DNA from: Oscillospiraceae bacterium
GTDB taxonomy: Bacteria; Bacillota; Clostridia; Oscillospirales; Ruminococcaceae
Length of the DNA stretch: 13,264 bases
Assembly: GCA_017848155.1 (NCBI GenBank)
Contig: JAGAKC010000423.1
Location: 1 to 13,264, forward strand
Direction of reading: 5' to 3'
How positions within the stretch are numbered: the first letter of the stretch is position 1; each line of letters begins with the position of its first letter. A model generated the notes under the pieces. That model was not told the DNA's origin and did not search any database. It saw nothing but the letters and a program-made list of their open reading frames with translations. The translations under genes were made by a program, and so were the position numbers. This document shows, one piece after another, positions 89-7,253 of the stretch.

Positions 89-982
89 TCTTCGGGATTT
101 GACGGAAAGATAATCAGAGCGGTCGGCGGAAACTACTACGTTGACGTTAGTGACGGCGACAGAAAGGGCGAGGTCGTGAAATGCAGCGCAAGAGGCATAT
201 TCCGCCTTGACGGGATAAGTCCCTGCGCAGGCGATAATGTCCGTGTGCAGACGGAGGACAACACCGACCCTGTCATCGCCGAAATATATGAGCGCAAGAA
301 CTATCTGATACGTCCGCCGCTTGCGAATCTTGACGGGATAGTGTTTGTGAATTCGTGCATCGAGCCGCTTCCTAACAGGTTCGTGCTGGACAAGCTGGTG
401 GCGATCGCCGACAGCAAGGGCATCGAGCCGCTGGTGGTGTTCACAAAGACCGACCTGAAGGACGCAGGCGATATCATAGATGTATACCGCAGCATCGGTA
501 TAGATGTCTGCCTTGTAAACAATATGACGGGCGAGGGCGCAGAGCGTGTGATGGGCTTCATAAGCGGCAGAGTTACCGCATTCGTTGGAAACTCGGGCGT
601 TGGCAAGTCAAGCCTTATGAACGTGCTTTTCCCCGAGCTTTCACTGGAAACTGCCCACATCAGCAAGAAGCTGGGCAGAGGCAGGCACACCACACGACAG
701 GTGGAGATGTACAGGCTTGCGGGCGGCTACGTGGCGGATACTCCGGGCTTTTCCACGGTGGAAACGGAGCGTTATTGCAGGATACCGAAGGGCGAGCTGG
801 ACATGGCTTTCCGTGAATTCGGCGAGTTCATGAACGAGTGTCAGTTTGCGGACTGCGCCCATATTAAGGAAAAGGGCTGTGCGGTGCGTGAGGCGGTCGA
901 AAACGGCAGGATAGCACGCTCACGCTATGACAGCTATCTCAGAATGTACGAGGAAGCGAGCAGGAGAAATGAGTGGGAGTAA
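86..982 (+). CDS. rsgA: RsgA, circularly permuted GTPase of 30S ribosome maturation
   Basis: RsgA binds the nearly mature small subunit and hydrolyses GTP to license late 30S assembly in the cytoplasm. From AUU at 86 the product has 298 residues, a usual length. An N-terminal OB-fold with the GKIIRAVGGNYYV signature comes first. The permuted GTPase motifs follow: TKTD (about 120-123, G4), MTGEG (G5), P-loop GNSGVGKSS (168-176), HTT (about 201-203) and DTPGF (218-222). A C-terminal zinc site has C252, C257, H259 and C265. Starting at the GTG at 176 would give 268 residues and delete about 30 residues of the OB-fold that are clearly coded upstream, so I prefer AUU with its 8-nt Shine-Dalgarno spacing. 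An indel near 78-100 is the alternative. The 3' end overlaps thiN by 14 nt. In B. subtilis rpe separates rsgA from thiN; here it is absent. The function is certain; the start is less so. Confidence 0.93.
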   Translation: MSSGFDGKIIRAVGGNYYVDVSDGDRKGEVVKCSARGIFRLDGISPCAGDNVRVQTEDNTDPVIAEIYERKNYLIRPPLANLDGIVFVNSCIEPLPNRFVLDKLVAIADSKGIEPLVVFTKTDLKDAGDIIDVYRSIGIDVCLVNNMTGEGAERVMGFISGRVTAFVGNSGVGKSSLMNVLFPELSLETAHISKKLGRGRHTTRQVEMYRLAGGYVADTPGFSTVETERYCRIPKGELDMAFREFGEFMNECQFADCAHIKEKGCAVREAVENGRIARSRYDSYLRMYEEASRRNEWE

Positions 983-1592
983 TATAGCGTCGATAATATG
1001 CGGAGCGCCTGACGGAAGTCTTGACCGCAGCCTTGTGGAGGGACTTGTCATCTGCGCTGACAAGGGCATGGAGCACGCTGCGGCGGCAGGCATCACACCT
1101 CACATAGTGGTGGGCGACTTTGACAGCAGCACTGTGCTACCGCCTGACGGCATCGAGTGCATCAGGGTATCTCCCATAAAGGACGACACAGACGCAATGC
1201 TTGCCGCAAATACGGCTATAGAGCGTGGCTGTACTGTGCTGAGGTTCTTCTGTGCCCTTGGCGGACGGTTTGACCACACCTTTGCGAATGTACAGATGCT
1301 TCAGCACCTGCATGAACGGGGGATATACGCAGAGCTTTACGGCGGCAGCGAGAGGATAAGGCTGCTGCATGAGGGAGATTCGGTGCGCATCCCGCGCTTT
1401 GAGGGGTTCGTTTCGCTTTTTTCCTACACGGCTGTCGCAGAGGTGACCGAAACAGGTATGAAATACCCCTTGCAGCACTACGCCCTCGACCACGGCTTTC
1501 CGCTCGGCGTAAGCAATGAGGTGGCCGAGGAATACGGAGAGATCATCCTGCACAGCGGAACGGCGATACTGTGCGAGTATCACGGGGCGTAG
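969..1592 (+). CDS. thiN: Thiamine pyrophosphokinase (thiamine diphosphokinase)
   Basis: Transfers pyrophosphate from ATP to thiamine, making the cofactor thiamine diphosphate in one step; typically the salvage route in Firmicutes. The ATG at 969 has AGGAG at 962-966 and gives 207 residues, typical for the family. Visible motifs are CADKGMEHA (29-37), the acidic GDFDS (49-53), KDDTD (71-75), GGRFDH with N107 (98-107), and the C-terminal thiamine-binding-like segment with TGMKYPL (162-168) and GVSNE (180-184). An earlier in-frame ATG at 927 lies well inside rsgA without a comparable ribosome site and would add 14 residues before the conserved domain. The 14-nt overlap with rsgA suggests translational coupling. 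No terminator is evident after the stop. Confidence 0.93.
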   Translation: MSGSNIASIICGAPDGSLDRSLVEGLVICADKGMEHAAAAGITPHIVVGDFDSSTVLPPDGIECIRVSPIKDDTDAMLAANTAIERGCTVLRFFCALGGRFDHTFANVQMLQHLHERGIYAELYGGSERIRLLHEGDSVRIPRFEGFVSLFSYTAVAEVTETGMKYPLQHYALDHGFPLGVSNEVAEEYGEIILHSGTAILCEYHGA

Positions 1593-3497: not shown

Positions 3498-3506
3498 ATA
3501 ACAATA

Positions 3507-3540
3507 ACTCGCAGAGTGATATGCTCTGCGAGTTTTTTTG
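3507..3540 (+). terminator. Intrinsic terminator after the BIG2/solute-binding gene
   Basis: ACTCGCAGAG at 3508-3517 pairs perfectly with CTCTGCGAGT at 3525-3534 around a 7-nt loop, followed directly by a run of Ts. It begins about 10 nt after the stop codon and should insulate the small genes downstream. Confidence 0.92.
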
Positions 3541-3617
3541 TAACAAAATCCGTGCCTTGGAATAGTATGTGGTGAGGGGCGAAGCTGCCCTGTAATTTCA
3601 GCACGGGAGGTGACGGT

Positions 3618-3788
3618 ATGAAAAGGCGCAGAAAGCACAGGGGCGGCAGATGCGGCGGCGCAGCAGTGCTTGCGGCGGCTGCATTTTTCGGAGCGCTGCT
3701 GTGCCTGTCGTTTTTTTCGGTGAAGCTGCTGCTGTTTGGTATCGCAGTGCTGTTTATCGTGCTGGGTGTATTTCTTATCAGGCTTTGA
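3618..3788 (+). CDS. Small two-helix membrane protein preceding spoVM
   Basis: I do not recognise a named family. The ATG at 3618 has GGGAGG at 3605-3610 with 7-nt spacing and opens a 56-residue frame. Residues 1-11 are strongly basic (MKRRRKHRGGR). Two hydrophobic segments follow, about 15-33 (AAVLAAAAFFGALLCL) and 36-54 (KLLLFGIAVLFIVLGVFLI), joined by a short FFSVK turn, and the chain ends RL. The positive-inside rule predicts both ends in the cytoplasm. Its stop is 14 nt before the spoVM start, so the two are probably co-transcribed. I infer a role linked to spoVM, perhaps in the forespore or mother-cell membrane; nothing in the sequence proves this. No convincing sigma-A, sigma-E or sigma-G promoter is visible in 3541-3604. 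Confidence 0.7.
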   Translation: MKRRRKHRGGRCGGAAVLAAAAFFGALLCLSFFSVKLLLFGIAVLFIVLGVFLIRL

Positions 3789-3802
3789 AAGGGGAGTTAC
3801 AT

Positions 3803-3898
3803 ATGAAGATAGTAGTGGTCAGAAGCCCTCGTCTGTTTGCAGGTATCTTAAGAGCTATATTCGGAATAAAGAAGCAGGACAGGGAAATTCAGCCATAG
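3803..3898 (+). CDS. spoVM: SpoVM-like spore coat anchoring peptide
   Basis: SpoVM is a tiny amphipathic helix that embeds on the convex forespore membrane and anchors the SpoIVA coat base layer. The ATG at 3803 has AGGGGAG at 3790-3796 with 6-nt spacing and gives 31 residues. Aligned without gaps to the 26-residue B. subtilis peptide (recalled from memory), M1, K2, P9, G14, I15, R17, A18, G21 and D26 are identical. R7 and R10 stand for K7 and K10, and L11/F12 for F11/L12. P9 is the residue known to matter for curvature sensing. The last five residues, REIQP, extend past the Bacillus end. In B. subtilis spoVM follows rsgA-rpe-thiN; here it lies 2.2 kb after thiN, with the solute-binding gene and a small membrane gene between. 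The identification is by alignment from memory but is strong for so short a protein. Confidence 0.87.
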   Translation: MKIVVVRSPRLFAGILRAIFGIKKQDREIQP

Positions 3899-3923: not shown

Positions 3924-3952
3924 TTGAATTTTGCTGCCATACGTGATACAAT
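3924..3952 (+). promoter_or_regulatory. Promoter of the SLOG/YpsA-like gene
   Basis: TTGAAT at 3924-3929 and TACAAT at 3947-3952 are 17 bp apart, with an extended -10 TGA (3944-3946). Transcription should begin near 3959. The GATACAAT at 3945-3952 also matches 7 of 8 positions of the sigma-E -10 sequence CATACAAT, so a sporulation sigma factor could in principle read it too; the -35 favours sigma-A. Confidence 0.7.
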
Positions 3953-3981: not shown

Positions 3982-4470
3982 TTGTACAGAGTTTCTTTTA
4001 CGGGTTACAGACCGTCAAAGCTCCCGTTTTTTGGTGAGGACGACCCGATGTGTGCGGCGCTGAAGGCACGTATTTCTGACAAGGTGGAGGAGCTTTACAG
4101 GCTCGGCGCAACAGGGTTTTTCACAGGCATGGCGCTGGGTGTGGATACATGGGGCGCAGAGGCGGTGCTGTCGCTTCAGAAAAAGCACCCCGAGGTACGG
4201 CTGTATGCCATGATACCCTGCCGTGGTCAGGAGAATAAATGGAGCGCAGCTGACAAGCAGCGCTATGCCCGTATCCTGCAGCTTTGCAGCAAGGTGCTGT
4301 GCATAAGTCCCGAGTACACATCGGACTGCATGCATAAGCGTAACCGTGCCCTTGTGGACATCTGCGACTTTCTTGTCGCAGTGTACGACGGACGCAGCGG
4401 CGGCACGCAGTACACCGTAAACTACGCCGAAAAACAGGGCAAACGTGTGATAGTCATTCCACCTGTATAA
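3982..4470 (+). CDS. YpsA-like SLOG-family protein (DUF1273)
   Basis: A 162-residue Rossmann-like protein of the SLOG superfamily, which includes DprA- and YpsA-type proteins thought to bind nucleotides or nucleotide-derived ligands. The start is TTG at 3982, with GAGGTGAT at 3971-3978. Family hallmarks are FTGYRPSKLPFF (6-17), the glycine-rich TGMALGVDTWGAE (48-60), a polar KRNRALVD helix (119-126) and GGTQYTVNYAEKQGKRV (140-156). In B. subtilis YpsA has been tied to cell division and oxidative stress; whether that transfers is unknown. The gene has its own promoter within the tail of the spoVM transcript and is convergent with gpmI. It is probably monocistronic. Confidence 0.85.
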   Translation: MYRVSFTGYRPSKLPFFGEDDPMCAALKARISDKVEELYRLGATGFFTGMALGVDTWGAEAVLSLQKKHPEVRLYAMIPCRGQENKWSAADKQRYARILQLCSKVLCISPEYTSDCMHKRNRALVDICDFLVAVYDGRSGGTQYTVNYAEKQGKRVIVIPPV

Positions 4471-6146: not shown

Positions 6147-6920
6147 TCAGCCGTTCTCTGCTGCCTTGATGATAGTTGTGAAGTCAGCAGCCTTCAGGGA
6201 AGCGCCGCCGATAAGACCACCGTCAACGTTCTTCTTGGAAACCAGCTCAGCAGCGTTTGCAGCGTTCATGGAGCCGCCGTACTGGATAGTGATAGCCTCT
6301 GCAACGTCAGCGCCGTAGAGCTTAGCGAGTGTAGCACGGATGAATGCGCATACCTCCTCAGCCTGATCTGCTGTTGCGGTCTTGCCTGTGCCGATAGCCC
6401 ATACAGGCTCGTAAGCGATAACGCACTTCTTAAGGTCGTCTGCCTCGATGCCGAAGAAGTCAAGCTTGATCTGACGAGCGATCACTTCCTCTGTGATGTT
6501 GCACTCACGCTCCCAGAGAAGCTCGCCAACGCAAACGATGGGCTTAAGACCTGCGGCAAGAGCAGCCTTTGTTCTCTTGTTTACAGTTTCGTCTGTTTCA
6601 GCGAAGTACTGTCTGCGCTCGGAGTGGCCGAGTACTACGTACTCAACGCCCATCTCTGCCAGCATGTCAGCGGAGATCTCGCCTGTGAAAGCGCCGCTCT
6701 TCTCGAAGTGGCAGTTCTCAGCGCCGATCCTGATGTTTGTGCCCTCTGTAGCAGCCAGAGCTGTTTCAAGGTTTGTGAAAGGAACGCAAGCCACGATCTC
6801 AACAGACTTTACGTCTGCTACCATGCCCTTGAGCTCGTCCAGAAGTGCCTTTGCCTCGGGACGTGTCTTGTTCATCTTCCAGTTGCCTGCGATTATTGCT
6901 TTTCTTGTTGCCTTGTTCAT
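6147..6920 (-). CDS. tpiA: Triosephosphate isomerase
   Basis: Interconverts dihydroxyacetone phosphate and glyceraldehyde 3-phosphate as a cytoplasmic TIM barrel. From ATG 6920 it has 257 residues, a normal size. Catalytic residues are visible: K15 in AGNWKMNK (11-18), H99 in LGHSERR (97-103) and E171 in AYEPVWAIGTGK (169-180), whose latter part is the flexible loop 6. The phosphate-binding GGS (215-217) and GGLIGGASL (234-242) close the barrel. I chose this start because AAGGAG (6930-6935) lies 9 nt upstream and the canonical N-terminus follows at once. The same frame stays open far upstream into a pentapeptide-repeat sequence, which is listed separately. It lies between pgk and gpmI in the glycolytic block. 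Confidence 0.95.
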   Translation of the reverse strand: MNKATRKAIIAGNWKMNKTRPEAKALLDELKGMVADVKSVEIVACVPFTNLETALAATEGTNIRIGAENCHFEKSGAFTGEISADMLAEMGVEYVVLGHSERRQYFAETDETVNKRTKAALAAGLKPIVCVGELLWERECNITEEVIARQIKLDFFGIEADDLKKCVIAYEPVWAIGTGKTATADQAEEVCAFIRATLAKLYGADVAEAITIQYGGSMNAANAAELVSKKNVDGGLIGGASLKAADFTTIIKAAENG

Positions 6921-7253
6921 TGTTTTATTCTCCTTATGATTATTTTTATAGAAGTCCATCATTTCATGAACGCTTACACCGTCTATCGTCATTCCGTCCA
7001 GCCTGCAGTTTACTATTGCGGCACCTGTGAGGTCGCATTTTTCAAGACTCGCACCGCTGAGATCGCATTGCAGAAAGCCTGCGCCGCGAATATCGTTCTC
7101 GACAAAGCCTGCGCCCTTTAGCTGGGTTCGTATAAAAGCAGAGCCTTCCAGGGTGCTTTCCTCTATGTCGCAGCACAGCCTGCTGCGCTCGATACGGAGA
7201 TCTTCGGAGCTGCATTCGCTTATCAGCGATATCTTTTCGTTGATAATGTTCAT
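6147..7253 (-). CDS. Possible pentapeptide-repeat/TPI fusion (in-frame N-terminal extension of tpiA)
   Basis: A frame from ATG 7253, with GAGGT at 7259-7263, runs 111 codons and then continues without a stop into tpiA, for 368 residues in total. Residues about 33-92 are twelve unbroken pentapeptide units (STLEG, SAFIR, TQLKG, AGFVE, NDIRG, AGFLQ, CDLSG, ASLEK, CDLTG and so on). These predict a right-handed quadrilateral beta-helix of three turns. Residues 93-111 look like a translated intergenic leader, rich in A/T codons and containing the tpiA Shine-Dalgarno (AAGGAG read as codons). This suggests a separate pentapeptide gene that lost its stop, with ribosomes either running through to a fusion or re-initiating at the tpiA ATG. 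Pentapeptide proteins have varied roles; none can be assigned here. Whether the fusion exists as protein is unknown. Confidence 0.55.
   Translation of the reverse strand: MNIINEKISLISECSSEDLRIERSRLCCDIEESTLEGSAFIRTQLKGAGFVENDIRGAGFLQCDLSGASLEKCDLTGAAIVNCRLDGMTIDGVSVHEMMDFYKNNHKENKTMNKATRKAIIAGNWKMNKTRPEAKALLDELKGMVADVKSVEIVACVPFTNLETALAATEGTNIRIGAENCHFEKSGAFTGEISADMLAEMGVEYVVLGHSERRQYFAETDETVNKRTKAALAAGLKPIVCVGELLWERECNITEEVIARQIKLDFFGIEADDLKKCVIAYEPVWAIGTGKTATADQAEEVCAFIRATLAKLYGADVAEAITIQYGGSMNAANAAELVSKKNVDGGLIGGASLKAADFTTIIKAAENG

Follow-up and report, generated by a model that had tools for sequence, protein, structure and literature searches.

In the DNA studied here, a stretch of 13,264 nucleotides that is called the window below, the open reading frame (ORF) at positions 3803 to 3898 (+) is best explained as spoVM, lying second in a unit of two genes, a reading to which we assign a probability of about 0.88. 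SpoVM is an amphipathic peptide found where the outer forespore membrane faces the mother cell; there it holds in place SpoIVA, the ATPase on which the spore coat is built. Its presence is expected in a spore-former; of more interest is the adjoining gene, which encodes a small membrane protein of 56 amino acids (3618..3788, +) and ends 14 nt before spoVM. In the proposed arrangement, an intrinsic-terminator-like hairpin (3506..3539, +; a 13-pair stem with a T run) would be followed by a promoter-like element (3539..3569, +), by the 56-aa ORF with its putative ribosome-binding site (GGGAGGTG; 3605..3612, +) and, 14 nt further on, by spoVM, of which the putative ribosome-binding site (GAAAGGGGAG; 3787..3796, +) overlaps the stop codon of the 56-aa ORF.

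The translation of 3803-3898 reads MKIVVVRSPRLFAGILRAIFGIKKQDREIQP, followed by a stop codon, and comprises 31 residues, the 26-residue SpoVM core plus five more. It matches the NCBIfam equivalog model for SpoVM (NF033436) completely, over model positions 1-26, with 46.7 bits (E 2.2e-12) against a curated cut-off of 31 bits, which is the outcome of the profile search that the initial annotation had proposed, and it is the sole SpoVM match across the assembly of its own genome. A Pfam-A scan of the ORF gave no match, and phmmer against the PDB returned B. subtilis SpoVM (2mvh_A) alone, with a weak score (E 0.35). The alignment with the 26-aa B. subtilis peptide is free of gaps from the start to Asp26 and has 9 of 26 positions in common (M1, K2, P9, G14, I15, R17, A18, G21 and D26), so that the residues named in the initial annotation (P9, G14, I15, R17, A18, G21 and D26) were correctly identified; the five additional C-terminal residues and the 9/26 identity set the two peptides apart. 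Pro9 is retained and the amphipathic helix after it is present. For residues 10-25 the hydrophobic moment amounts to 0.59, the same value as in B. subtilis SpoVM; 518 of 10000 shuffles matched it, which makes it only moderately exceptional. According to Ribis et al. 2017 (PMC5607322), no SpoVM residue but Pro9 is fully conserved, and Pro9 is essential to recognise positive curvature. The remark that a gene of this size goes unannotated stands in so far as the poor annotation of spoVM was already described in 2012 (PMC3533761), but a dedicated NCBI model exists. Judged by its sequence, the ORF is a real and ordinary SpoVM.

Conservation among relatives bears this identity out. SpoVM matches were obtained in 122 genomes of a draw of 148 from the family, 108 of them above the cut-off, and in 40 of 43 genomes of the genus; two of the three genus genomes without a match are 69-73% complete and the third (G183) is 97% complete. 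All 40 genus loci, i.e. the window and 39 further SpoVM-positive loci, encode a SpoVM-like peptide of 26-31 residues with K/R-S-P-K/R at positions 7-10, starting with ATG in 37 cases and with TTG in three. Over codons 2-23 of these loci pN/pS is 0.149; the value rises to 1.04 and 2.89 when the frame is shifted, and the spoVM frame is therefore under selection at the protein level. Across the 148 family genomes SpoVM and SpoIVA tend to occur together (116 genomes with both, 14 with neither, 6 with SpoVM only and 12 with SpoIVA only; Fisher p 1.5e-8, in a test that ignores shared ancestry and genome incompleteness), which means that SpoIVA was found in 116 of the 122 SpoVM-positive genomes; each of the six with SpoVM and no detected SpoIVA is at most 90% complete. 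The two matches lie no more than 6 kb apart in at least 33 of the 148 family genomes, mostly at about 1.7-3 kb; for this count the comparison covered 36 SpoIVA positions. This proximity is a second recurrent neighbourhood of spoVM in the family.

The genome from which the window derives is represented by an assembly of 2.39 Mb in 498 contigs that is 77% complete, and it carries the ordinary signature of endospore formers. SigE is present above the cut-off (371 bits), as is a partial Spo0A (217.7 bits, cut-off 200); SpoIIGA (114 bits) and a SigF-like ORF (205 bits) score below their cut-offs, and so does a SigG fragment of 192 aa (319 bits). SpoIVA is represented by a fragment with 268 bits in Pfam and 256 bits in NCBIfam, the latter below the whole-protein cut-off, and the ORF directly 5' of it has a SipL SPOCS domain and a weak LysM match. 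The SpoIVA, Spo0A and SigG sequences are fragments at contig ends. Thus, of the genes that the initial annotation wished to see searched for, spoIVA, spo0A, sigE and sigG were all found (spoIVA, spo0A and sigG as partial genes), and sporulation capacity is supported at the level of gene content by these together with spoIIGA, the sigF-like gene and sipL. A genome without spoIVA and sporulation sigma genes, and a peptide without conservation among relatives, were looked for as the contrary outcome and not obtained. As a separate observation, on contig C207 of genome G000 (L077, L083) spoIIGA-sigE is convergent with the sigG fragment; in B. subtilis spoIIGA, sigE and sigG all run in one direction.

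The initial annotation also placed the peptide in a conserved neighbourhood. In B. subtilis, spoVM comes after rsgA-thiN, and this order was indeed found, with spoVM no more than about 300 nt after thiN, in 11 of 28 rsgA loci, all of them from more distant relatives; closer to the window it does not hold. In the window, rsgA (176..982, +; TIGR00157, 222 bits) and thiN, for thiamine diphosphokinase (927..1592, +; TIGR01378, 139 bits; its true start is probably within the ORF), are separated from spoVM by the gene for a secreted-looking protein of 598 aa with Big_2 Ig-like domains (PF02368; 1701..3497, +), which has its own terminator, and by the small ORF, so that spoVM is not directly 3' of thiN as it is in B. 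subtilis and has a small membrane-protein gene in front of it. In the four closest relatives (L032-L035) spoVM is absent from the 6 kb after rsgA; in three of these genomes it is located on another contig, and in the fourth it was not found. A conserved rsgA-thiN-spoVM unit was therefore rejected for the genus. Because the 598-aa gene, the terminator and the promoter-like element intervene, spoVM is probably not transcribed together with thiN.

As to the other genes of the window, the 598-aa protein has no counterpart at the 39 other genus spoVM loci; it contains two Big_2 stretches, and its C-terminal part has no good match among the curated families of Pfam and NCBIfam. Downstream of spoVM lies a gene of the YpsA (SLOG) family (3982..4470, +; PF06908), preceded by a match to a sigma-70-type promoter at 3924-3952. 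At 6147-7253 (-) a triosephosphate isomerase ORF has an in-frame pentapeptide-repeat stretch in front of it (residues ~57-98), which may be a separate small gene that is read through, or a fusion. The nearest named records at rsgA are four metagenome-assembled genomes of Oscillospiraceae with 84-92% identity, two of which are labelled roe-deer colon.

The promoter-like element at 3539-3569, TGTAAC-N15-GAATAGTATG, is conserved upstream of the two-gene unit in the genus. With up to two mismatches in its 14 fixed bases it occurs at 38 of the 40 genus loci and in 2 of 2806 background windows, and with up to three mismatches at all 40 loci and in 48 of 2806; since the motif was derived from the same genus loci, this enrichment is not an independent test. 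The exact pattern was present in two of five genus genomes that were searched, solely at the spoVM locus, and thus defines no regulon. Its upstream half is unlike the sequence found, at 13 loci of the genus, in front of spoIIIAA. A sigma-E consensus of the B. subtilis type was tried and not retained, as it occurred at scattered positions in 7 of 38 upstream regions as compared to 252 of 3152 background windows (18% vs 8%). We propose that the element may be a sigma-E-type promoter of the two-gene unit.

The 56-aa ORF, a conserved gene on which the initial annotation was silent, starts with a strongly basic segment (7 of the first 12 residues are K or R), is free of acidic residues and turns hydrophobic at about residue 13, remaining so up to its end. 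A homologue is located upstream of spoVM on the same strand at all 40 genus loci. At 38 of these it was found directly, not more than 45 nt from spoVM; a profile detected it at the other two, L126 and L134, where the distance is about 108 and 64 nt, respectively. At 29 of the 40 loci the gap measures 12-16 nt. In the genus loci pN/pS of the small ORF is 0.40 in frame and 0.77 and 2.22 in the shifted frames, and an alignment of 22 genus sequences has 12 invariant columns. The structure predicted for the protein is a single long helix (residues 12-55; mean pLDDT 74, pTM 0.34), a prediction that does not discriminate between one and two membrane passes. Scans of Pfam and NCBIfam gave no family for the ORF. 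DUF6249 (best E 0.00034, in 2 of 20 members), YtpI and YtaF appeared as scattered weak matches, and membership of these families was not accepted.

The surroundings of the pair vary within the genus. An ORF of the xseA cluster lies upstream of it at 27 of the 40 loci, one of the SpoIIIAH cluster is present at 18, in 17 cases less than 1 kb downstream, and both occur together at 15; several loci are cut by contig ends, and the names of the flanks were verified in one genome (L158). There, the flanks are SpoIIIAH, AG, AE, AD, AB and AA on one side and an AmaP/Asp23-like ORF, NusB and XseA on the other. In L158, and by cluster at 15 of the 40 loci, the pair is inverted between spoIIIAH and the AmaP/Asp23-like gene, against the direction in which the rest of that neighbourhood is oriented. 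The loci near to the window (L124, L125, L131, L140, L148, L149, L159 and L160) have flanks that mostly differ from the xseA/SpoIIIAH type and often from each other.

Beyond the genus, the small ORF was followed with a profile (A1) of 20 small-ORF sequences, ten of them from genomes of the family draw, with which the 148 family genomes were scanned regardless of position. At E<=1e-5 all 38 matches share the strand of spoVM and precede it by 16-156 nt, and 28 of them came from genomes that contribute no row to the profile. At E<=1e-4 this position was found for 45 of 46 matches; the 46th (G104, locus L165) is followed by a SpoVM-like peptide of 23 residues that ends right after the helix and is missed by the curated SpoVM model. 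At E<=0.01, 48 of 63 matches lie beside spoVM, the other 15 being that of G104 and 14 that look like background. By this profile, the pair is present in 48 of the 122 SpoVM-positive family genomes and 74 are without it.

A draw of 393 genomes from the class, searched with A1 at E<=1e-3, gave matches in 52, and in 43 of these a SpoVM-like peptide is encoded directly downstream (20 beside a SpoVM-model match and compared by hand, 14 recognised by pattern and nine by eye). Twenty-three of the class peptides have no match to the curated model at E<=0.01 and were recognised through the adjoining small ORF. No SpoVM-like peptide was detected alongside the match in nine of the 52: in L186, L187 and L195 (family f22) there is no SpoVM within about 220 nt of the small-ORF relative, and the matches in L190, L196 and L200-L203 are mostly inside longer frames or in frames that contain stops. 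L186 apparently has two tandem copies of the small-ORF relative. Conversely, 122 class SpoVM matches have no adjoining A1 match; inspection of 28 of these, mostly better-scoring ones, showed that at 14 loci spoVM is preceded, at a distance of 4-79 nt, by a small hydrophobic ORF and that the other 14 have none (a 32-aa ORF in L220 was left out of this count). Since 43 of the 52 genomes are paired and 14 of the 28 inspected loci lack such an ORF, a small membrane-protein gene before spoVM is common in Clostridia and not universal. Four SpoVM-like peptides from family f5 of the same order (L173, L176, L179 and L199, from genomes G374, G482, G391 and G527, respectively), each encoded right behind the small membrane ORF, carry S, T, K or H where Pro9 would be expected, and their curvature sensing may be different.

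A comparable arrangement has been described in C. difficile, where, according to the account in PMC5607322, spoVM is controlled by sigma-E and co-transcribed with CD25622, an upstream gene for a 50-aa protein; the window likewise has a protein of about this size encoded directly before spoVM. The same account presents CD25622 as apparently unique to Peptostreptococcaceae, whereas the relatives detected here occur in other families. A search of open-access literature found no paper on CD25622 besides this one. An alignment of class-wide small-ORF members (A3), with three rows from the genus or family and one from G454, matched 780 proteins, and many of the best 120 of these 780 are 'hypothetical' or unnamed. 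Also among the best 120 is P0151, a C. difficile-labelled protein of 50 aa that is 98% identical to the ORF by which SpoVM is preceded in G454 at a distance of 35 nt, and from species, length and position we infer that P0151 is CD25622. Another protein of the family, P0076, comes from C. acetireducens, a harmless Clostridium that can be cultivated; its sequence recurs in L211, in the ORF placed 11 nt ahead of SpoVM. A class profile without G454 and the three genus/family rows scores P0151 with 30.9 bits, a score reached by none of 10000 shuffles. In public records P0151 and P0172 (50-51 aa) are named '2-oxoglutarate translocator', which is very likely a mis-annotation.

The relation of the window ORF to this group is less direct. 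The genus profile, compared with class rows that contained no genus or family rows, gave an hhalign probability of 94.6 (E 6.4e-8); an earlier hhalign comparison against A3 was partly circular, as A3 held three such rows. The A1 profile scores P0151 with 11.4 bits, which 7 of 10000 shuffles reach, and, taken by itself, the window ORF reaches 3.8 bits with the class rows, as do 434 of 10000 shuffles. With the genus profile and C. difficile-type sequences the probability was 0.3 and P0151 was not found, and the proline that most class-wide rows have at their centre is missing from the window ORF. Links between such small ORFs are uncertain because the sequences are short and hydrophobic. The comparisons indicate that the C. 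difficile protein forms one group with the class-wide rows, and they join the window ORF to this group weakly, by way of profile-profile comparison and family intermediates.

With SpoIVA and SipL encoded in the genome, SpoVM is likely to have the same anchoring role as in known systems. By analogy with B. subtilis and C. difficile, the unit would be expressed in the mother cell under sigma-E, and the peptide would sense curvature through Pro9 and bind SpoIVA. For the 56-aa protein we tentatively suggest, at appreciably less than even odds, that it may be an integral membrane component of the SpoVM basement layer; made together with SpoVM, it could stabilise the SpoVM-SpoIVA-SipL anchor, or confine it, in the outer forespore membrane. 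B. subtilis has, in CmpA, a very small sporulation protein that acts with SpoVM and SpoIVA. The 56-aa protein resembles CmpA in its small size and in its proposed action with SpoVM and SpoIVA, and no sequence kinship is claimed; PMC5607322 reports that homologues of CmpA are absent from Clostridia. A precedent for the proposed role is SpoVQ (CD3457) of C. difficile, a different protein, which is described in PMC8265636 as a sigma-E-controlled mother-cell protein that resides in the outer forespore membrane and binds both SpoIVA and SipL, and as restricted to Peptostreptococcaceae.

The main competitor of this suggestion accepts the peptide as SpoVM and regards the 56-aa ORF as an unrelated passenger, the adjacency of which has been kept since short distances rarely break. 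In its favour, the small ORF evolves faster than spoVM (pN/pS 0.40 vs 0.15), and the profile finds nothing beside spoVM in 74 of the 122 SpoVM-positive family genomes; a small hydrophobic ORF is absent from 14 of the 28 inspected class loci. The C. difficile insertion mutants of PMC5607322 also suggest little effect of the small gene: as reported there, SpoVM is largely dispensable, and an insertion in CD25622, likely polar on spoVM, had essentially the same effect as one in spoVM, from which the authors saw little impact of CD25622. An idle passenger would, however, hardly be expected to show frame-specific selection, to stay with spoVM at 40 of 40 genus loci while the flanks change (xseA cluster at 27, SpoIIIAH cluster at 18, and others), or to be directly followed by a SpoVM-like peptide in 43 of the 52 class genomes with a profile match. 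We consider the passenger explanation less likely than not.

It is also conceivable that the small ORF is mainly a translational leader that sets the output of SpoVM, with a peptide of little importance in itself. The overlap of its stop codon with the Shine-Dalgarno sequence of spoVM, as seen in the window, and the gap of 12-16 nt at 29 of the 40 genus loci, would fit such a function; the pN/pS of 0.40 and the 12 invariant columns in 22 genus sequences point instead to selection on the protein, and the gap extends to about 108 nt in L126 and, between profile match and SpoVM match, up to 156 nt in the family, which makes the leader explanation improbable. That the ORF arose by chance or is a relic, in a lineage that has lost sporulation, or that the peptide has been co-opted for another membrane-curvature role, overlaps in part with what the initial annotation had raised, and it is highly improbable. 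Six of the 148 family genomes do have SpoVM and no detected SpoIVA, but all six are at most 90% complete, and the strong purifying selection and the conserved promoter-like element argue against it. A non-sporulating lineage or a new role of SpoVM was rejected in view of spo0A, sigE, spoIIGA, partial sigG, the sigF-like gene, sipL and partial spoIVA in the genome.

Most of the coat morphogenetic proteins of Bacillus are missing from Clostridia, as stated in PMC5607322, and since the anchoring of the clostridial coat is poorly known, a small gene linked to spoVM matters. A membrane protein that is kept with spoVM through shifting neighbourhoods is a candidate for a missing coat anchor, and its gene can serve as a pointer to divergent spoVM genes, as illustrated by the 23 peptides recognised in this way, four of them without Pro9. 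In its widest form, which we hold to be doubtful, the proposal would be that a dedicated small membrane protein encoded before spoVM in Clostridia is a third element, so far overlooked, of the basement layer that SpoVM and SpoIVA form, and a widespread family, and this family may be one that lies outside Pfam and NCBIfam rather than a curiosity of Peptostreptococcaceae. If this is true, such a third element of the basement layer may bear on the lower importance of SpoVM in C. difficile than in Bacillus.
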